Shown here: one piece after another, positions 1 to 9,881 of the stretch | Layout of the letters: every line of letters starts with the position of its first letter | Position numbering within the stretch: the stretch's first letter is position 1 | IMG/VR virus record: IMGVR_UViG_3300006080_000170 | Coordinates: 1-21,467 of that record | Reading direction: 5' to 3' (one strand) | Length of the DNA stretch: 21,467 nt | From: a virus | Program-made: the position numbers and the translations under genes | Notes under the pieces: model-generated | What the model was told of the DNA's origin: nothing | Databases searched by the model: none | What the model saw: only the letters and a program-made list of their open reading frames with translations

Positions 1-2522
1 CTGTCTGTAATAGCATACCCTTGACCTTTACTAATAACAGCAATGTCAATAAGTGAACCTGAACCATCTACCGTACCTTTAGCACGACAACCACCACCAC
101 CTTGTGCGACAATGTCAACATATACTGTTGATTCTCTAACCCAAACATTACAACCAGTTGAAATACCAGAACCAGTCAACATATATTTGTCAGTAATTTC
201 TGTTTCTAAATCGATTATATATTCCCAAACACCGTTTTGTGGGATATTTGGAGATTTAAACATACCATCCACGTGCTCAACATCGTGTCCAGCAAGGTCG
301 TTATTTGTAAATCTAAGAGTATCACCAACTTTTGCACTAACGTTTGCAGGTACAAATTGTCCGTTCTGTAACGAAATATCAATCGTTGCGGCAGACGTGT
401 CTACATATCCAGCACCTTGATTTGTTACGTTAATTGATTGAACTGCACCATCGGCAGTAGTATATGTTGTTGTCGCAGCCGTTGATGGACCACCACCAGT
501 GATTATTACATTAACTAAAGCATTGTATCCAATTCCACCATCAACCATAACAATTGAAGAAATTGAACCATTTGATTCGTCTAATGTTACGTATGCGCTA
601 GCACCCGAACCATCACCAGATATAGTAACAACAATTTCAGGGTTGACATTCACATCACCAACATATCTACCATGATCATGGTCACCAGTAGAATAAATAC
701 CAGTTGTTCCAATTTCTTCGTACATAAAGTTTTGAGAAAACTCATTCCATATAACGGTAACATCGTGATTATGTCCAAGTTCAACAGTAGTTGCGGTTAT
801 AGACATTCCAGATTTGATTGAATCAATATCTCCTTGAGATAATTGAACGGTATGAACATGGTCTGCAAGACCACCGTTATTCGGCACTTGAAGTTCCCAA
901 TAACCAGTATAATCAGCACCCGCGTTTACAGTATCAAGAGCAACAATAGTTCCATTACCAATAGTAACAGTAGCAGTTGCTTGAGTCAAAACTCCATCTA
1001 CGTCTAATACACGTAAATAAGACGCATCAGAATAACCTGTACCTGAGTTTGTAATAGTAACATCAGAACAACCATCATCGTAAGAGGCGTTACAAATTGC
1101 ACCAGTACCTAATTTACCGTTATGGTCGATTGTATAACTATAAGAATCAATAAAACCAGAATCGTCAGAAATATATACTTTATAAATCATTCCGTCAAAT
1201 AAAGAAGAACTATAAGACTCATTTGGAATATCTAATTCATAAGAACGTGTAAAGTCGTCAAGGATAGTTACTTCAGAAGCAAAATATTGCTCACATTTTA
1301 AAGGACTATCGAATTGTGGGTCACTATTAACGTCAAAACTATTTTCAACGAATGAAGCACCCATATCGGCTGTAACACCATAACCTAATACATCAGAATT
1401 GCTGTCGTGACAGTAAGAAGCATTTGGTCTAAATAAAATTGTATCACCATCTTCTGCGTATTGACCACCAACACCACGTTTTCCAACACCAGTGTTGTAG
1501 TCGTTGCCCGCCATGTCTTTAATAACAACGTAATCGCCGTTATTAATATCGTTGAAGATAAATGCGTATTGTCTGCCTCTAGAAATTATTAATTCTGGAT
1601 TATCAACATCAGGAATAGAAGTATTGTTCAGAATTGTTAAATCAGTCGCTGCAGTACCGTCAGCCTCGTGACCTGTTACTCTAAATGTCTTAGTACCATC
1701 TGCTGAAGTGTTGATAGTAAAGTCGTATGCTTTAACTTGCTCGATAGAAATAGCACGTGTAGTAGTATCTAAATCTAGAACGTTATGATTAACAAAAGGT
1801 CTAACCTCTCCAGAAATTTCTAAAGATTCACCAAATGATACGATATTATCAGTAACATCATAAACAATGTGATGAGTAGTAAAATCTCCCTCTCTAGCAG
1901 ATGTAACATTAATACCAGTATTATCGAAAGTGTAGTTGTCTTGATTAATTGCAGAAGTCATAATCAAATCAGCAATTAACTGATTCGTTTGATGAACCGA
2001 ATAACCAGAATCAGTAGCACCAGTTGTATATTGTGCTAAATTCAACTCTAAGTCGATTAATGCCTGAGCAATAACGGCATCTTGAGAAGATACGTGGGTT
2101 GAATAGTCCGTCATCAATTGAGATAACGTTTGAGAAATGTTAGTTTCTAATAAATTAGCATTATCTGAAAGAATTACACCAGAGTTATTTGCCCATGGGA
2201 TAAAAATATCATTAACAAATGCTTTAACTTCGTTGTTGATGTATGTCTCAACCGCATCCATTGCCTCGTTAGTTCGTACAACAACTTCATTCTTAAATGT
2301 GTTTTGCTGTGCCTCTAAGGGTGTTGCGATGTTTGAATTCAACCAAGTCTTCATTGAAGATGCCATAGCATTCAACTTGGTTGGAATCATCACCGCAGGG
2401 GTGTTAGTGTAAATTTCTACGTCATTAGCAAACTCGCCAATATCAATAGAATCAAAATTGATATCCGGGATATCATTAAAAGTATTGACCGCATGGGTTA
2501 TTGTATCTAATGTAATAGACAT
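1..2522 (-). CDS. Giant modular tail-fibre/adhesin-like virion protein, 3' end beyond the window
   Basis: Reading back from an ATG at 2520-2522 gives an uninterrupted frame to base 1 (840 codons, no stop), so the C-terminus is missing. AAAGGAG at 2529-2535 sits 6 bases before the ATG, and a double late-promoter box lies just upstream. Residues 1 to about 200 look helical and resemble the proximal end of many phage fibres (an opening with FNDIP, then alanine/asparagine-rich helices). Later come glycine-tyrosine repeats (around residues 485-530 and 622-710, e.g. GGIGYN, GAGYVD), an HxH module at residues 552-618 (HVH, HNH, HDH), and a cupredoxin-like segment at about 711-798 (FVPANV, VGDTLRF, GHDVEH) that keeps a histidine and a later cysteine but lacks the usual C-x2-H pair. 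The same modules occur in the 2422-residue gene upstream. Structural role is inferred from architecture and location; no specific family is recognised for the whole protein. Confidence 0.85.
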   Translation of the reverse strand, partial: MSITLDTITHAVNTFNDIPDINFDSIDIGEFANDVEIYTNTPAVMIPTKLNAMASSMKTWLNSNIATPLEAQQNTFKNEVVVRTNEAMDAVETYINNEVKAFVNDIFIPWANNSGVILSDNANLLETNISQTLSQLMTDYSTHVSSQDAVIAQALIDLELNLAQYTTGATDSGYSVHQTNQLIADLIMTSAINQDNYTFDNTGINVTSAREGDFTTHHIVYDVTDNIVSFGESLEISGEVRPFVNHNVLDLDTTTRAISIEQVKAYDFTINTSADGTKTFRVTGHEADGTAATDLTILNNTSIPDVDNPELIISRGRQYAFIFNDINNGDYVVIKDMAGNDYNTGVGKRGVGGQYAEDGDTILFRPNASYCHDSNSDVLGYGVTADMGASFVENSFDVNSDPQFDSPLKCEQYFASEVTILDDFTRSYELDIPNESYSSSLFDGMIYKVYISDDSGFIDSYSYTIDHNGKLGTGAICNASYDDGCSDVTITNSGTGYSDASYLRVLDVDGVLTQATATVTIGNGTIVALDTVNAGADYTGYWELQVPNNGGLADHVHTVQLSQGDIDSIKSGMSITATTVELGHNHDVTVIWNEFSQNFMYEEIGTTGIYSTGDHDHGRYVGDVNVNPEIVVTISGDGSGASAYVTLDESNGSISSIVMVDGGIGYNALVNVIITGGGPSTAATTTYTTADGAVQSINVTNQGAGYVDTSAATIDISLQNGQFVPANVSAKVGDTLRFTNNDLAGHDVEHVDGMFKSPNIPQNGVWEYIIDLETEITDKYMLTGSGISTGCNVWVRESTVYVDIVAQGGGGCRAKGTVDGSGSLIDIAVISKGQGYAITD
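130..390 (-). other. Degenerate cupredoxin-like domain (residues ~711-798 of the left-edge gene)
   Basis: The segment has the plastocyanin-type layout: a strand with FVPANV, then VGDTLRFTNND, then a histidine-bearing GHDVEHV, then F-x-SPNIP-x-NG. The later cysteine (GCNVW) is not followed by a histidine two residues on, so a normal type 1 copper site seems lost. The fold call rests on motif pattern only. Confidence 0.5.
670..870 (-). repeat. HxH module in the left-edge gene (residues ~552-618)
   Basis: A three-site histidine module: DHVHTV, then LSQGDIDSIKSG, then GHNHDVTV with WNE, and finally GDHDHG. The same order (HxH, short LTxxE-like helix, HxH plus aromatic strand, closing HxH) is seen in the 2422-residue protein (3925-4310) and the right-edge giant protein (19808-20028). 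Confidence 0.65.
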
Positions 2523-2612: not shown

Positions 2613-5600
2613 TTATGCTAATCTAACGAAACCGTTAGTAATAGTATATTGTTCATTTTCTAGCGTTGTTAAAACTAAATCGGCATGTGCTGTCGGCGTC
2701 AATCCATTAATAGTAAATTCAATAATGGAAGGAACATGAATGTCACTAACTGCTTGTGGAACACCACCAATCGTTAATGTCATTCCAGACTTAAATCCAA
2801 CACCTTCGACAAGTATAACGTCACCTGTGTATCCTCTATCATTAGACAACCAAGTAATTTCTAAATTATCTAACAATTCTTCTTGACGTTTCGCAACATC
2901 ATAATAATCTTCCATAGTGTTCTCACCGAAAGATTCAATTGTTCTAAAACCAGTTGTAACTTGTCCTGTGTAGTCCAGATTTTCGTTATCTTGATTATGT
3001 TGTTTCCAACGTTCTTCACCACCAAGAGGCATACCGAATACATTCAATGCGCGTCCTAGTAATAAATATTCATCCGAAGATAAGTTTGGAATAGTCTTAA
3101 CAGTAACATCGTCCCAGAAAGTAAATCCTTCTTCAACGGTTGAAAGAGTTAAATAACAAACACCAGTAGCAATTGCTTTAAACACCAAAGACCTTGTCTC
3201 ATCGTACACTCCAGATGCTGGTTCAGCACCGATTAAGTATGATGCATAAGAATCTGAATCAGGTGCTGTTCCAATTTTAACAACAGAACCCGTTGGTTGT
3301 CTAACACTAAAGAATGCCTTGTAATGTTCATTTTCTTCCACAGGGAACGAAACATAAGCAATACCTCTACCACTTGGTCCAGTTCCTGATGTGAATATTT
3401 GACCATTTTCAACATCCATAAATGCCTTTCCACCTATTTGAGAATCAAACGACCACAATTCTTCAACAAGTTTAACGGAAACATTATCAACACTTCCTTG
3501 GAATCCACGAGAATAATAATATGGACTTGAAGTTTCTAATGGACGTTTATCAATATCTCCAACTAGATGTATTCTGTTGTCGTAATCGCCTGCTCTGATG
3601 AAATACTTTTTCTCACCTTCATTAACTATACCAGTTGTGTGGTGGTCTAATACTGGAACTTGTGTTTCGTGCATCTTCACAGAATTGATACTTCCCGTAC
3701 CATTAGTGATGATTGAAAGTGTAGTTCCAATAGTTCCCGCAATAGTGATGTTATGAATACCAACAGAATCAATCATCTCAGTTGAAATCGCATTATCTGC
3801 CTCACCAATTACAACAGTAATATCAGATTGTGTAGTTGTTGTTCCAGTTTCTACTAAGTCGTCATGACCTTCCCAGAAAGTTTGAGTAACAATTCTCATA
3901 CCAGAATCTAATACATCAGCAACAAACGATATATGAACGTGTCCATCTAAAGCAACATCTTCTTCAACAACAAATGCTGTACCATTCCACGAAATTATAA
4001 TTAAATGTTCGTGAGTATTATCAGTTTGCGTTAAGTGATTCATATCAAGGTAATTAATAGTACCATTGATCAAGTTCGTGTAATCGTCATAGTCACAAGT
4101 GTAATTATGATTATGTGCTTGCTCACCACCAGAAAGAATAAACGTACATGTTTCTAATGAAGTAGTATATGAAATAGTAAACGTATGTTGATAGTATTGA
4201 GAGTGAGTGTCGTCACTTTGAAGTACCGTCAATGTATTTTCATCATCGAGTTTAAGGTATTCGTACTCTGCTTGAGTCAATTCTATATTATGAGTATGTG
4301 ATGAAATTCCACTAATATGGAAAATATGATTAGTACCAGATACTTTATCAACGTCAATAATTATTTCGTAATCTACAACATTACTTAAATTTTCACCAAA
4401 TGTATATGTAATCTTAGCGTTTGTTGAGTCTGTGAATACTAAATGCTCATTGTCAAATACCATTGCAGATGAAGTTGTACTCCAATTAATCGCACTCTGT
4501 GCTGAAACATCAAAGTTCCAGTTGTTGATTAAGTTGTAAGGGTTAGTTCCCAACGTTAGTTGTAAACGACCTTGTGGACCATTTCCATCTGGGTCTGTAT
4601 TTGTTAATTCATAAGATACTTCATATAACTTTCCTGATTCAATAGGTAAAGTTTGATTGATTTCCGTGCCTGATTGAATCAAACCAGAAGCAGTTGCTGT
4701 ACCACCTTCTGCGTTCCAACCTTCTGACATGTACCAAGCATTTTGACCACTAACTCGTTGTCTCAATGAAATATTATCAAATTTACCTAAACCAACAGCA
4801 GTGAATTGCAACGTTGTTGTATTTGCTGGAGCAATGATTGTTTGTGTGTAAACACCCGCAGTCGTATGAATTGCACCTTCAACAGTAGTATCACCAATTA
4901 ATGAAATTTGAAGAGTACCAATTTCAATATTAGCAGAGTCAACGAATGTCTCAAGGATTTCATATCCAATTTCATATTCATCACCGTCTACAATACTACC
5001 AGTAACAATTTGAGATAACACTCCACCTTGAACTGCGTCTGTTGTATATGCTGAAGCATTATTAATTTCCATCGAACCTGATTCAGTCCACGGAGATTCT
5101 TTAATTGTGAAATTATCTATTGAGAAATCTGAACGTTCACCTTGGTCTAAACTTAAATAAAGTTTTGCTACACCAGTGTAATCGTTAGTAACAACAAAAG
5201 TTTCTTTATCAGTACCGTTTTCTAGTTGAACAGCATCAATGTATTGTTCAGTACCTAATTCAATATTCATTGCTTGTAGGTTAGGAATAATACCCAAACC
5301 AGAAGCAGTTAATACGTTTCCTGTACTATTTTTATGTGCTTGCGTTCCAGCAACAGGGAACGTGTTCTCTGGAGTTGGTTGTACTTGGAAATAATTTGGA
5401 CCAGAACCGTTATCAACAGCAACCTTATCATGAATATGAATAGGTGTGTACATATTATCTTGACCGTGATGGAAGTAAACAGTAATATCTTGACCAGCAG
5501 TTGACTGCGGTACATCGATAATATTGAATTGTCCGACCATAGACTCATGCCATGCACATTGATAATATAGTGTATCTGGAGATACTTCAGGAACTGTAAA

Positions 5601-8600
5601 TTCTAGAATTTCGTATTTTGGAACACCTGAGTCGTCATTGCCCCATCTATCATCACCTTCCGTTTGAACACCAGCACCTTCTTCAGCACGAGTTCCAACT
5701 ACACCAAGAGTATATTCACCGAAGTAAGCTCCGGGAGTGAAATGAGAACCATCATCCGTTGTTACATACATCGGGTGACCAGCAGCGTTTACTTTAAATC
5801 TGTAAGTACCACCGCGGTATAGGTTAAGAGTTCTGTTTGTACCTTCAATCATACCAGACTTATCAAACTTGAATAGTCCGTTATATGATTCTACGTGATA
5901 TGCACCATTTGATTCACCAGGAGGCTGGAATGGTCCAAGACCAGTTTGTCCGTCCGAACCAGAAAGTCCGAAATCTTCAGGAATAGTCCACGTGAATTCT
6001 TTAGAGAAGTTTCCAATAAATTGACTTTGTCTCCATTGTGCTAAACCAACTGTTTGACCAGGATTTAAATCGTCACATGCCGTTTTCTCGTCAACACCAT
6101 TATAGTACCAACCATCAACATCTAATTCTTCACACCATCCCGCTAAACCCATACAAGTTGGGAAGTTCTGAGATGAAGTCCAAGTTCCAGGCTCCTCTTC
6201 TGTGTTTACGAAGTCATTATGGTCGCCAGAAACAATTGTTAATCCATGGTCAGCATTCTTAGATACACAATACTTTCCGCTGTTATCAACAAATCCTTCA
6301 GTGACTAAGTTATCCCAACCACCGCCTGGAATTCCTTTAATACCCGCTGCATGCATATACATATCTGTTTCGATACCAGTATATGGGTCTTCAGCAGTTA
6401 TATATCCAGATGGATTCCAAGCATTGTTTGTAAATTTATAAGTACCACCACGGAATAATACAAAACCGCCGTTTGTTCCATCATTACCACCGAACGAATC
6501 TTGAGATGCTTCGGCTACTTGATATGGGTAGTAAGAAACGTCTGAATGATCCCACCAAGACCACAACCAAGGCGAATCTTGCGCACCTTCAACTGTTGTT
6601 AGGTTAGGGTCAGAGAATGTAACTGTTGTATTTGTATCAACAGTAATTTCCATATTATCAGTTGGTCCATAACCGTCACCAAGTCCAACAACCGTATGGT
6701 TTACAAGTGCTCCTGGTAATTCTGAAGGGTAATAAGGTTGTGGTCCAGATGGTAATTGAACTACATCACCAATATTAACACCGTGATTTTCAGATTCTAC
6801 AACATTAGGTCTTGACCAGAAGATTTGAACACCTTCAACGAAAGGAGAACCAACGTGATTGGTTAAATCGCGTTCAACTTGGAATCTGTATGATGCCAAA
6901 TCAGCAACAACTGTATATTCTTCAATAACGTTAAATTCTGAAGGAGTCGTTCCTGGTGCACCGAATAGTGGATATACGACAGATTCTGTTAATACAAAAT
7001 TATCTTTATCTACTACATTAGCAACCCAATAGTTGGTGTTACCGTGATGAATACCGTTATACACGTTAGTATAGTGAATACGTTGTCCTGGAACCATACC
7101 GTGGTCGGCACAGTTAATTCCTCGTTGTTTCTTAACATAACCAGAAATATCTTCAAATGGAATAGCAATTGAAGTAGGGTTTAAATCGTCACCGCCTAAG
7201 GTTGCGTCAAATTGACCAATTTGGAAAATATCAGAACCAGGATACCAAACACGTCCAAAGTCGTGGATATGTTGATCAATAGTGATGATTACATATGTAT
7301 CGGTTGCTGGGTCTAAAATACCAAATTCTACTGTATGGAAATGTTGAGGGTCAGAAGTACCGAAGTCTGAAGTGCGAATAATAGTATTACCATTGCCATC
7401 GTGACTGAATGTTCCGTCTGTATCTTCGGTGAGTCCAGTAACAGGGTTTGCCTTTAATATTGCTTCATCTTCTTCATTAATTAGAATTTCATGATAATGA
7501 CCAAAGTTGACTAATTCAATCTTAGTACCACCAGAAATTTCATAGTATGTATCCAATCCGTGAGTATGACCACCAGTCATTCCAACTAATACCAACGCAC
7601 CATCACCACCATTGCCAGCCGGATCCCAGTCGAATGTGACCGTATGGGAATGTCCAGTGTTGTCAAGTGTTGTAACAACTTGAGTCGGAGTTCCTGATTG
7701 AATTGTTAAATATGTAATAGGTGAAATTGTTAATTCGTGAACGTGACCAATGTTATTTACGTCATCAAGGAAAACGTCAATGCGTTCTTCACCTTTAGAA
7801 ACTTGAGTAATAACATATGTTTCCCATTGACGTTCTCCAACCGCAACACCACCAGTAGATGAACCATAAGCAAGTCCACCATCAACTAATGTTAATGCTG
7901 TAACAGAACCAGAAACTGATACACTAGCAGATGCAGTCACTACTGGAGTTCCTCCATCAATAGAAATTTCAGGAGCAGATTGATATCCTTCACCAGCACC
8001 ATTTAAAATTAGACCAGTTATCGTAGCACCAATAGTAGCACTAACAAGTGCGTCAGCAGTTGCTCCACCACCTGTAATGGTAACAGTAGGAACTGAAGTG
8101 TATTGGTCGCCGTCTGTCATGATTGCGATAGAAATTAATTCGCCAGTATTGAAATCAATATTTGCCTCAGCAGTTGCTTGGACAGTTGCTCCACCACCAG
8201 TGATAGTAACAACAGGAACTGAAGTATAACCAACACCACCATCATCGATAGTTAATGTTGCTAGAACATCCACACCTAATACGGCAGTTGCAGTAGCTGC
8301 AACGACTGGGTTTCCACCCACAAAAGTAATAACAGGTAAGGTTTGATAACCTTTACCGCCGTCTAGTAGTGTTAAAGTATTAACCGCTGCTATCCAATCA
8401 ACATCAGCAGTAGCACCATAACCACCACCACCTTCGATTGAAACAGAAGGTTTTTCGGTATATCCAAGACCACCACTAACTAATGTGATAGAACTTACTT
8501 CACCACCAGAAACTACAACAGTCGCAATAGCGGCTTCATCTGGAGTACCAGTAAAGATTACTTCAACTGGAGCAGCCGCATCTGGGTCGGTTTCTTCTTG

Positions 8601-9881
8601 ACCAGATTGGAAATCAACCAAATCTGAGATAGATAAATCGTGATATCTAGATTCAACACTACTTTGATCACCTGCACCACCAACTGATGTACAAGTGTTT
8701 AATAATTTAATATTAATGTAGTAAGAATTTGATAAATTCGGTAATGGAATCATTGTTCCATAGTTAATTGGAATCTTAACCGTGTCGCCTTCATTCAAAC
8801 CGTGGTCAATGTTGTACACGTATCTATGGTTTGTTTTAGTAGAAAGTCTGCCTTCTTCTAGTGGGTGGAAAGTACAATGGAAATACAAATCGTGATATCC
8901 ATCGACAATCCAAGACCAATCTTGTCCTGGGACTAAGTCTGGAGAAGTAAATGTTATGTTGTCATCTGATACAGCATTATGCATCAAATAATTGCCAAGA
9001 GGGTTGGTAAAGATAATTGTATCACCTTCACGAGCATTTACGTGATAAGGTACAATAGAGTGAATTTGTGTATCGGGGTCATCAAGTGCGCCTGGATTCC
9101 AAATACCACCACCAGTGACACAAGTTGCTTCCATCGCTAACATTGCCAAGTTATAATCAACATCGTTGTTCCAAGGAACAATAACATCATCACAAGTTGG
9201 TTTTACTAAATTGTCAGCTTCAATTACTGAACAAATGTAAATAACTGGGTCTGGACCACCACCCGTTTCAGAGAAAATTCCAGTATCTATTGATGGAATA
9301 TCTACTAAGTTTCTACCATTATTCGGTAGTTCCCAATTAACATCTCTTACTAATAAATCGTAATTAATTTTGTATTGAGTATTCGGTTTTAATGCAATAT
9401 CAAACGTAGTGACTGCTACTTGTACGCCGTCCGTTATTGCTTTAATAATATTTGGGCCTTCAACTAATAATTCGTCAAATTTGTACGCAATACCGTTTTC
9501 CCAAGGGGATGTTAAGTCGATACTACTATCAAAATTAGATTGTTTACAAAGTTCAATTTCTAAAGAGTCTGACGCAAAATCTGAGTTTTGTACCAAGTTA
9601 TCTGAAAGATACTTTTTATCTAATTGTTGGTTATCAACTAATGATGTTGGTGTTACGAAACTAGAGGACTTTCCCGCAATAGCAACGATAAAATCTTTGT
9701 ATGAAGCAAGATGTTCCATATTATCCATAATCTCAATAGATTTAAGCATTAATGCTAAATCACTAACTTTAAGATTTGGATCCGAGAGTTTAATGTTTAA
9801 AGAATCAAGAAAATTATCCTTCTGGGTTTCAATCGTAAGAAGTTCGTCTAAATTGAAAGTATGGTTGCTATAATGTGCCAT
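2613..9881 (-). CDS. 2422-residue mosaic virion protein with cupredoxin, HxH, jelly-roll and IPT/TIG-like modules
   Basis: A complete gene with ATG at 9881 and AAAGGA at 9891-9896. Visible modules, in order: a unique helical N-terminus; a first jelly-roll-like region (~90-190, NLVQNSDF); cupredoxin-like domain 1 (~273-346; MHN, then FHCTFHP); glycine-tyrosine repeats (~431-674); HxH cluster (~709-878); a cupredoxin-related segment near 1138 (LFRGGTYKF); cupredoxin 2 (~1350-1456; LYRGGTYRF, AGHPM, CAWHESM); carbohydrate-binding-like jelly rolls (~1593-1709 ending FDNISL, and ~2139-2264 ending FWDDVTV); a second HxH cluster (~1858-1986); and an IPT/TIG-like Ig domain at the C-terminus (~2348-2422). 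The domain mix fits an extracellular adhesin or tail fibre rather than an enzyme. It follows the 63-codon gene by 13 bases and is probably translated by coupling. Whole-protein family is not recognised; domain calls are by motif pattern. Confidence 0.92.
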   Translation of the reverse strand: MAHYSNHTFNLDELLTIETQKDNFLDSLNIKLSDPNLKVSDLALMLKSIEIMDNMEHLASYKDFIVAIAGKSSSFVTPTSLVDNQQLDKKYLSDNLVQNSDFASDSLEIELCKQSNFDSSIDLTSPWENGIAYKFDELLVEGPNIIKAITDGVQVAVTTFDIALKPNTQYKINYDLLVRDVNWELPNNGRNLVDIPSIDTGIFSETGGGPDPVIYICSVIEADNLVKPTCDDVIVPWNNDVDYNLAMLAMEATCVTGGGIWNPGALDDPDTQIHSIVPYHVNAREGDTIIFTNPLGNYLMHNAVSDDNITFTSPDLVPGQDWSWIVDGYHDLYFHCTFHPLEEGRLSTKTNHRYVYNIDHGLNEGDTVKIPINYGTMIPLPNLSNSYYINIKLLNTCTSVGGAGDQSSVESRYHDLSISDLVDFQSGQEETDPDAAAPVEVIFTGTPDEAAIATVVVSGGEVSSITLVSGGLGYTEKPSVSIEGGGGYGATADVDWIAAVNTLTLLDGGKGYQTLPVITFVGGNPVVAATATAVLGVDVLATLTIDDGGVGYTSVPVVTITGGGATVQATAEANIDFNTGELISIAIMTDGDQYTSVPTVTITGGGATADALVSATIGATITGLILNGAGEGYQSAPEISIDGGTPVVTASASVSVSGSVTALTLVDGGLAYGSSTGGVAVGERQWETYVITQVSKGEERIDVFLDDVNNIGHVHELTISPITYLTIQSGTPTQVVTTLDNTGHSHTVTFDWDPAGNGGDGALVLVGMTGGHTHGLDTYYEISGGTKIELVNFGHYHEILINEEDEAILKANPVTGLTEDTDGTFSHDGNGNTIIRTSDFGTSDPQHFHTVEFGILDPATDTYVIITIDQHIHDFGRVWYPGSDIFQIGQFDATLGGDDLNPTSIAIPFEDISGYVKKQRGINCADHGMVPGQRIHYTNVYNGIHHGNTNYWVANVVDKDNFVLTESVVYPLFGAPGTTPSEFNVIEEYTVVADLASYRFQVERDLTNHVGSPFVEGVQIFWSRPNVVESENHGVNIGDVVQLPSGPQPYYPSELPGALVNHTVVGLGDGYGPTDNMEITVDTNTTVTFSDPNLTTVEGAQDSPWLWSWWDHSDVSYYPYQVAEASQDSFGGNDGTNGGFVLFRGGTYKFTNNAWNPSGYITAEDPYTGIETDMYMHAAGIKGIPGGGWDNLVTEGFVDNSGKYCVSKNADHGLTIVSGDHNDFVNTEEEPGTWTSSQNFPTCMGLAGWCEELDVDGWYYNGVDEKTACDDLNPGQTVGLAQWRQSQFIGNFSKEFTWTIPEDFGLSGSDGQTGLGPFQPPGESNGAYHVESYNGLFKFDKSGMIEGTNRTLNLYRGGTYRFKVNAAGHPMYVTTDDGSHFTPGAYFGEYTLGVVGTRAEEGAGVQTEGDDRWGNDDSGVPKYEILEFTVPEVSPDTLYYQCAWHESMVGQFNIIDVPQSTAGQDITVYFHHGQDNMYTPIHIHDKVAVDNGSGPNYFQVQPTPENTFPVAGTQAHKNSTGNVLTASGLGIIPNLQAMNIELGTEQYIDAVQLENGTDKETFVVTNDYTGVAKLYLSLDQGERSDFSIDNFTIKESPWTESGSMEINNASAYTTDAVQGGVLSQIVTGSIVDGDEYEIGYEILETFVDSANIEIGTLQISLIGDTTVEGAIHTTAGVYTQTIIAPANTTTLQFTAVGLGKFDNISLRQRVSGQNAWYMSEGWNAEGGTATASGLIQSGTEINQTLPIESGKLYEVSYELTNTDPDGNGPQGRLQLTLGTNPYNLINNWNFDVSAQSAINWSTTSSAMVFDNEHLVFTDSTNAKITYTFGENLSNVVDYEIIIDVDKVSGTNHIFHISGISSHTHNIELTQAEYEYLKLDDENTLTVLQSDDTHSQYYQHTFTISYTTSLETCTFILSGGEQAHNHNYTCDYDDYTNLINGTINYLDMNHLTQTDNTHEHLIIISWNGTAFVVEEDVALDGHVHISFVADVLDSGMRIVTQTFWEGHDDLVETGTTTTQSDITVVIGEADNAISTEMIDSVGIHNITIAGTIGTTLSIITNGTGSINSVKMHETQVPVLDHHTTGIVNEGEKKYFIRAGDYDNRIHLVGDIDKRPLETSSPYYYSRGFQGSVDNVSVKLVEELWSFDSQIGGKAFMDVENGQIFTSGTGPSGRGIAYVSFPVEENEHYKAFFSVRQPTGSVVKIGTAPDSDSYASYLIGAEPASGVYDETRSLVFKAIATGVCYLTLSTVEEGFTFWDDVTVKTIPNLSSDEYLLLGRALNVFGMPLGGEERWKQHNQDNENLDYTGQVTTGFRTIESFGENTMEDYYDVAKRQEELLDNLEITWLSNDRGYTGDVILVEGVGFKSGMTLTIGGVPQAVSDIHVPSIIEFTINGLTPTAHADLVLTTLENEQYTITNGFVRLA
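3925..4310 (-). repeat. Second HxH cluster of the 2422-residue protein
   Basis: Residues ~1858-1986 contain SHTHNIEL, an LTQAE helix-like stretch, YYQHTFTISY, AHNHNY, THEHLIIISW and GHVHISF. This is one complete and one partial copy of the histidine module seen in the flanking giant proteins. Confidence 0.65.
5515..5835 (-). other. Cupredoxin domain 2 with a complete amicyanin-like ligand set
   Basis: Residues ~1350-1456 show LYRGGTYRF, then AGHPMYVTT, then a strand with FTVPEVSPDTLYYQ, then CAWHESMVGQF. This offers the four type 1 copper ligands: the AGHPM histidine, and the cysteine, histidine and methionine of C-x2-H-x2-M. That ligand-loop length is the one known in amicyanin. Similar domains occur in structural proteins of marine T4-like phages; whether they bind copper is not known from this sequence. 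Confidence 0.65.
7250..7755 (-). repeat. First HxH cluster of the 2422-residue protein
   Basis: Residues ~709-878 hold GHVHEL, GHSHTV, GHTHGL, GHYHEI, QHFHTV and QHIHDF at roughly 20 to 40 residue intervals, usually at the start of a hydrophobic beta-like strand. In the T4 gp37 tip, HxH motifs from three chains bind iron; a similar metal-stabilised trimer is a possible reading here. Confidence 0.65.
7861..8590 (-). repeat. Glycine-tyrosine tandem repeats (about six units of ~40 residues)
   Basis: Residues ~431-674 are degenerate tandem units of the form GGxGYxxxPxVxIxGG, then an alanine/threonine-rich strand, then LTLxDGG. Recognisable starts are GGLGYTEKP, GGKGYQTLP, GGVGYTSVP, GDQYTSVP and GEGYQSAP, with partial units at each end. 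The period is about 120 bases, but units are diverged at the DNA level. Such repeats are common in phage fibre proteins and probably form an elongated beta-structured shaft. Confidence 0.75.
8845..9065 (-). other. Cupredoxin-like domain 1 with altered axial ligand
   Basis: Residues ~273-346 show VPYHVNAREGDTIIFTNP, then MHNAV, then F-x-SPDLVPG, then LYFHCTFHPLEEG. The first histidine and the C-x2-H pair are present, but the methionine expected three or five residues after the second histidine is missing, with glutamate or glycine there instead. The site may be altered or purely structural. Confidence 0.6.

Follow-up and report, generated by a model that had tools for sequence, protein, structure and literature searches.

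The IMG/VR virus record IMGVR_UViG_3300006080_000170, from an uncultured marine bacteriophage and analysed here over its whole length of 21,467 bases (the window), carries five long genes on its minus strand, which together span most of it. One of these genes, P0001, encodes a large protein of tail or baseplate type, and the element under study is a domain within it that is predicted to be a copper-binding cupredoxin module. The neighbours of P0001 are a T4 gp8-like baseplate wedge protein and a protein with a DUF4815 domain, and PHROG matches of P0001, through residues 431-674, are to virion structural and baseplate families. The other long genes are P0005, with a glucose/sorbosone-dehydrogenase (GSDH) propeller, and P0002, cut short by the contig end. 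The features discussed below are collected in Table 1.

Table 1. Coordinates of the features of the window, with the evidence or sequence character on which each entry is based.
Feature	Position	Strand	Basis or character
P0001	2613..9881	-	Open reading frame call; 2,422-residue tail/baseplate-type protein carrying the cupredoxin domain
Cupredoxin domain, P0001 residues 1316-1458	5508..5936	-	AlphaFold2 model; Foldseek and VIA-align matches; conserved in viral relatives
H1369, first candidate copper ligand	5775..5777	-	Profile column 45, conserved
C1442, candidate thiolate ligand, sole Cys of the domain	5556..5558	-	Sequence
H1445, candidate ligand	5547..5549	-	Sequence
M1448, candidate axial ligand	5538..5540	-	Sequence
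Second segment, P0001 residues 256-360	8802..9116	-	H301, C336 and H339 kept; Met replaced within CTFHPLEEG
Half copy, P0001 residues 1086-1240	6162..6626	-	Resembles the N-terminal part of the domain; conserved
Third segment, P0002 residues 696-810	93..437	-	First His kept; Cys, second His and Met gone
Glucose/sorbosone-dehydrogenase propeller in P0005	20126..21001	-	PF07995, E 3.4e-33

The initial annotation had placed four type 1 copper ligands at positions 5515-5835. This is exact: on the minus strand, the interval corresponds to residues 1350-1456 of P0001 and contains H1369, C1442, H1445 and M1448. The ligand loop reads CAWHESM, and its spacing, C-x2-H-x2-M, occurs a single time in the products of the five long genes. 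An AlphaFold2 model of the domain, built from 36 aligned sequences of the window and IMG/VR, has a mean predicted local distance difference test score (pLDDT) of 83.8 and a predicted template modelling score (pTM) of 0.80, with the ligand-bearing blocks at pLDDT 91-93. Numbered within the domain, H54 follows strand 44-49 and precedes strand 56-59, C127 closes strand 122-127, and H130 and M133 are in the loop ahead of strand 134-140; in the strand order, these are the cupredoxin positions. Foldseek searches of the Protein Data Bank gave 25 matches at E<=0.001, all of them to cupredoxin-fold copper proteins (including nitrous oxide reductase, AcoP, laccases, nitrite reductase, rusticyanin and auracyanin), and the best match by VIA-align is rusticyanin (Z 9.0 over 109 residues at 2.6 angstroms). 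The model thus predicts the Greek-key beta-sandwich of the cupredoxin superfamily and, by position rather than distance, the two His, the Cys and the Met of a type 1 copper protein at their places in the fold. Fold matches in BFVD include 'beta-sandwich' proteins of Pithovirus and Marseillevirus, and on these model comparisons giant viruses may have related cupredoxins.

The domain belongs to a large viral family. A first viral scan found 17 loci, and all 15 full-length ones keep the four ligands, which argues that the set did not arise by chance; the remaining two cover residues 1-39 only and are uninformative on the ligands. The set was widened by further viral scans, 12 named phage regions and one genome scan. 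In a phage collection of 50,697 records, 352 match the copy of P-SSM2 at E<=1e-3, 345 of them carrying the name Synechococcus phage, Prochlorococcus phage or cyanophage; cultured cyanophages with the domain include Syn9, P-SSM2 and S-RIM2. Among the matches listed, the commonest annotation under the match is baseplate wedge tail fibre connector. Together with the gp8 neighbour and the PHROG matches, these cyanophage annotations lead us to infer that P0001 is a virion structural protein. In nine of the 12 fetched phage regions the match stops within 24 bases of the gene end, and the domain is therefore the C-terminal tip of the protein (the exceptions are P-SSM2, P-SCSP2 and P-HM1). In S-H9-1 (L118) and S-CAM4 (L124) it is the C-terminal tip of a subtilisin-like (S8) protease, by annotation or by BFVD match.

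In an earlier, smaller set of 141 copies with all four (His, Cys, His, Met; HCHM), the C-x2-H-x2-M spacing is exact in every copy and 134 have a single Cys, so that conservation of the Cys is not due to an intradomain disulfide. At a median pairwise identity of 34%, the four ligands rank with structural Gly, Phe and Tyr. The 'genome' relatives L099-L104, taken from bins or single-cell data, appear by protein content to be phage genes and were therefore not used as cellular evidence for function.

The strongest evidence comes from the manner in which the ligands are lost. The first viral, cyanophage and genome scans used peptide patterns that contained the ligands, and are thus subject to a selection effect. 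A profile was built with the four ligand columns masked, which makes detection independent of them, and was run over 349 loci comprising 3.56 million bases. From 387 domains, 82 incomplete ones were dropped, leaving 305 complete copies, 255 distinct ones and 83 representatives below 70% identity. HCHM is present in 236 of the 255 distinct copies, and the representatives fall into 69 with four ligands, four with three, none with two, four with one and six with none; rows reading MCHM, a probable alignment slip with the His two residues earlier, were counted as they read. Met to Gln is the one single change that recurs (3/83, and three of the four three-ligand representatives). Gln is the axial ligand of stellacyanin. 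Copies of this HCHQ type are found at L299, L304, L306 and L310. Joint loss amounts to 48 pairs, whereas 5,000 shuffles gave 7.2 on average and never more than 19. When normalised, it is 6.7; among 3,060 control sets, each made of four other conserved columns of these sequences, the value does not exceed 2.5, and no set reaches that of the ligands. Since the control columns share the same tree, this contrast is a fair one. Furthermore, the six strongest loss associations among 231 column pairs are exactly the six ligand pairs. To counter the selection effect, a recount was limited to loci from scans with ligand-free patterns; it gives 41, 4, 0, 4 and 3 of 52 representatives with four, three, two, one and no ligands, respectively. 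As read from these alignments, the joint keeping and loss of the four residues suggests that these virus particles carry copper.

By sequence comparison, the nearest named family of the window domain is PF25489 (At5g54830-like domain), with a weak match of 13.4 bits against a cut-off of 27. Seven of 12 phage-type members also match it weakly (best E 0.0016); clear matches occur in cellular relatives only, and three of the eight genome relatives tested pass the Pfam cut-off. The relative in Marinifilum is a small lipoprotein-like protein. At all four gammaproteobacterial loci of the genome scan (L112-L115) the gene is flanked on both sides by genes for triheme cytochromes, and a 10-11-haem cytochrome is encoded close by. 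A PF25489 search of 369 genomes from the taxonomic class to which the organism with L114 belongs gave 26 matching genomes, and the 24 loci read (L354-L377; two further matching places were left out) all combine C-x2-H-x2-M with an adjoining gene bearing three CxxCH motifs. The cupredoxin-domain protein of these bacteria has about 460-600 residues. The clusters of L113 and L114 also carry NHL-propeller proteins. From its gene content, the gammaproteobacterial cluster looks like an electron-transfer system. Because triheme cytochromes adjoin these copies, at least one branch of the family would reside in electron-transfer clusters, a neighbourhood that fits the prediction from a redox copper site.

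We consider it probable that the window encodes a genuine cupredoxin whose type 1-like His2-Cys-Met site holds a single copper ion, that it is a tail or baseplate module of a T4-like phage, and that it represents a marine phage family. The proposal of real metal binding in the initial annotation is well supported by inference, given the predicted cupredoxin fold, the ligands as the top co-lost columns and a Cys that is mostly without a partner. Among the alternatives, the best placed is a metal-free scaffold, in which tails have borrowed the beta-sandwich as a building block and the four residues are kept by descent or packing. Ligand-less copies do exist in the same kinds of protein (ten of the 83 representatives have one ligand or none, and P0002 has such a copy), and the fold can therefore serve without the site. 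However, simple descent or packing accords poorly with four residues that disappear together far beyond other conserved columns and that are, at so low a median identity, as conserved as structural Gly, Phe and Tyr; a lone exposed Cys would also not otherwise be expected to persist. We regard a scaffold of this kind as unlikely.

A number of observations nevertheless weigh against a copper-bearing tail cupredoxin. The template modelling scores of the Foldseek matches are moderate (0.35-0.55), the VIA-align Z of 8-9 is barely over the level that the tool calls common, and the ligands are placed by position in the sequence and not by distances. Sequence-only searches reach no solved cupredoxin convincingly: one returned a single lipase match, another HPr, an alphavirus glycoprotein and others at E 0.2 or worse with no cupredoxin among them, and a third pseudoazurin at E 0.4, ranked under spurious matches. 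The Copper-bind and Cupredoxin_1 families (PF00127, PF13473) have no match in P0001 and only weak ones, below the cut-off, in the third segment in P0002. A Pfam scan of P0001 gave no match, and the protein is assigned to the virion by homology and position only. In L050, a close relative of the window domain, the second His is replaced by Asp (CAWDASM), which may be a real loss or an assembly error. The Marinifilum, planctomycete, verrucomicrobial and betaproteobacterial (L110) relatives have no cytochrome neighbours at their loci. A tree-based test of joint loss is underpowered, with seven changes between ligand-bearing and ligand-poor states and 3-4 independent pairs on supported branches (six on all branches), so that p<0.05 is unattainable; ligand-poor copies cluster, and independent losses are therefore few. 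Its direction agrees, with Cys and the second His behaving the same way in 3.9 of 4 pairs, compared with 1.0, 1.6 and 1.0 of 4 for three control columns. Finally, a seed without any of the four ligands (L149:9972-10370) led to 37 viral loci, which yielded only 15 distinct profile copies, all HCHM. The profile thus misses most of this subfamily, and ligand-less copies are under-counted.

If a metal is bound, it might be zinc or whatever is at hand, serving for stability only. A zinc-bound cupredoxin-like protein (4hcg) is indeed among the fold matches, and zinc and iron sites are generally known in tail fibres. Yet Cys, two His and Met, with Gln as the sole recurrent substitute of Met, constitute the familiar type 1 copper set, and the gammaproteobacterial relatives adjoin cytochromes; we rate another metal as slightly less likely still than the empty scaffold.

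The initial annotation also held that two further cupredoxin-like segments of the window had lost one or more ligands, and that the full set was selectively retained in one copy. For positions 130-390 (residues 711-797 of P0002), part of the third segment in Table 1, this is borne out: the same ligands are missing in the relatives seen, and judged on its residues this is a truly degenerate copy. Positions 8845-9065 (residues 272-345 of P0001), in contrast, are without the Met only. H301, C336, H339 and all of HCTFHPLEEGR are unchanged across the 17 aligned rows, and the second segment has therefore not decayed. It likely forms a site of three ligands, or one completed in another way, but a poor model (pLDDT 54.7) leaves the fold unconfirmed, and a Pfam scan of the segment found two chance-level families only. 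With this segment undecayed and the full set common to a large marine phage family, selective retention in a single copy holds only in part. At the place in relatives that corresponds to the half copy, tblastn matches of the domain are found at E 1e-6 to 6e-4.

The PQQ-type propeller of P0005, a tail-region protein, is kept in 26 viral loci, and 18 of the 26 propeller contigs also carry the cupredoxin domain. All 14 rows compared keep its HNGG and RNPW motifs unchanged, and the gene order GSDH, gp8, DUF4815 is kept in 24 of the 26 loci. The two domains could form a redox pair, in which a quinoprotein-type sugar dehydrogenase in the virion acts on host surface sugars and passes electrons to the copper carrier. 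The propeller gene lies next but two to that of the cupredoxin domain in this conserved order, and the gammaproteobacterial relatives reside in clusters of electron-transfer type. Among solved structures, however, the propeller matches hedgehog-interacting protein best, and the quinoprotein dehydrogenases rank behind this binding protein; for this reason we hold the pairing to be very improbable. The propeller is, moreover, not demonstrated in most phages with the copper domain, and the catalytic roles of HNGG and RNPW are taken from general knowledge only. Equally far-fetched is a copper-loaded module that serves as bait for a receptor with which the host takes up copper, extending to this metal the 'Ferrojan Horse' idea already in print for iron, for although the domain sits at the C-terminal tip in most of the fetched regions, type 1 copper is generally known to be buried and not readily released.

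Motifs of the HxH type are numerous in the window, with 11 in P0001 and 18 in P0005. They sit in a repeated small domain, GHVH...GHSH...GHTH, which is kept in relatives (minus strand, 7512-7781 in P0001 and 16997-21466 in P0005). These repeats are reminiscent of the metal-binding HxH sites of T4 fibres.

Comparison with known systems sets the predicted tail cupredoxin apart from each of them. The initial annotation had called the ligand set amicyanin-like, and this holds for the C-x2-H-x2-M loop spacing only, the length of the amicyanin loop being general knowledge. At E<=1 the window domain is absent from the matches of the NCBIfam amicyanin model, and amicyanin identity was rejected; the relative L075 scores 12.8 bits against a cut-off of 110.2 for this model. 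Amicyanin is found among the fold matches (3ply, E 1.5e-3), but is generally known to have His-Asn where the window domain has His-Pro. The bacterial members of PF25489 that were read share the H...C-x2-H-x2-M pattern, whereas the window domain is embedded in a very large tail protein, and a longer loop separates its first His from its Cys. Rusticyanin, AcoP and auracyanin are single-domain blue or green copper proteins. They resemble the window domain in fold and, by general knowledge, in His2CysMet ligand types, but share 10-17% identity with it, have longer ligand loops (again general knowledge) and are free electron carriers. Cyanophage plastocyanin (petE) is likewise a copper cupredoxin encoded by marine phages, but acts as a free, host-type electron carrier in the infected cell and not as a tail module. 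Metal ions are also built into the tail fibres of T4 (gp37 and gp12, from general knowledge), though at HxH sites between chains, in contrast to the His2CysMet site predicted within one domain here. In a literature search that covered few subscription journals and no preprints, cupredoxin domains of phage virions did not turn up. The fold, the ligand set and phage plastocyanin as a metabolic gene are known; the novelty would lie in using this fold and ligand set for a metal site conserved among virion tail proteins.

The host cytoplasm contains almost no free copper, and a copper site in a virion is accordingly proposed to load after release. The metal bound would be copper rather than another metal, and the site would fill once the virion has left the copper-poor cytoplasm. 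With the metal in place, the Cys-His-Met loop would be anchored to the His strand, stiffening an exposed tail module, and the metallated beta-sandwich could then provide the tail with a stable unit for recognition or with a joint. Such a scheme leaves room for redox activity at the host surface but would not require it. A bolder version, which we think improbable, has a blue-copper component taken from bacterial electron-transfer chains into the tails of marine phages, where it is assembled without metal, picks up copper in seawater and does its work at the host surface, paired in this clade with a dehydrogenase-type propeller. If this version were true, the virion would be a carrier of redox chemistry.

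Within the family, the ligand-less subfamily would offer a natural metal-free control. If the domains do hold copper, many marine phages, the cyanophages most visibly, would bear a redox metal on their tails. Copper would then join the trace-metal chemistry of ocean viruses, and the domain would represent both a directly testable adsorption factor and an old electron-carrier fold put to a new use.

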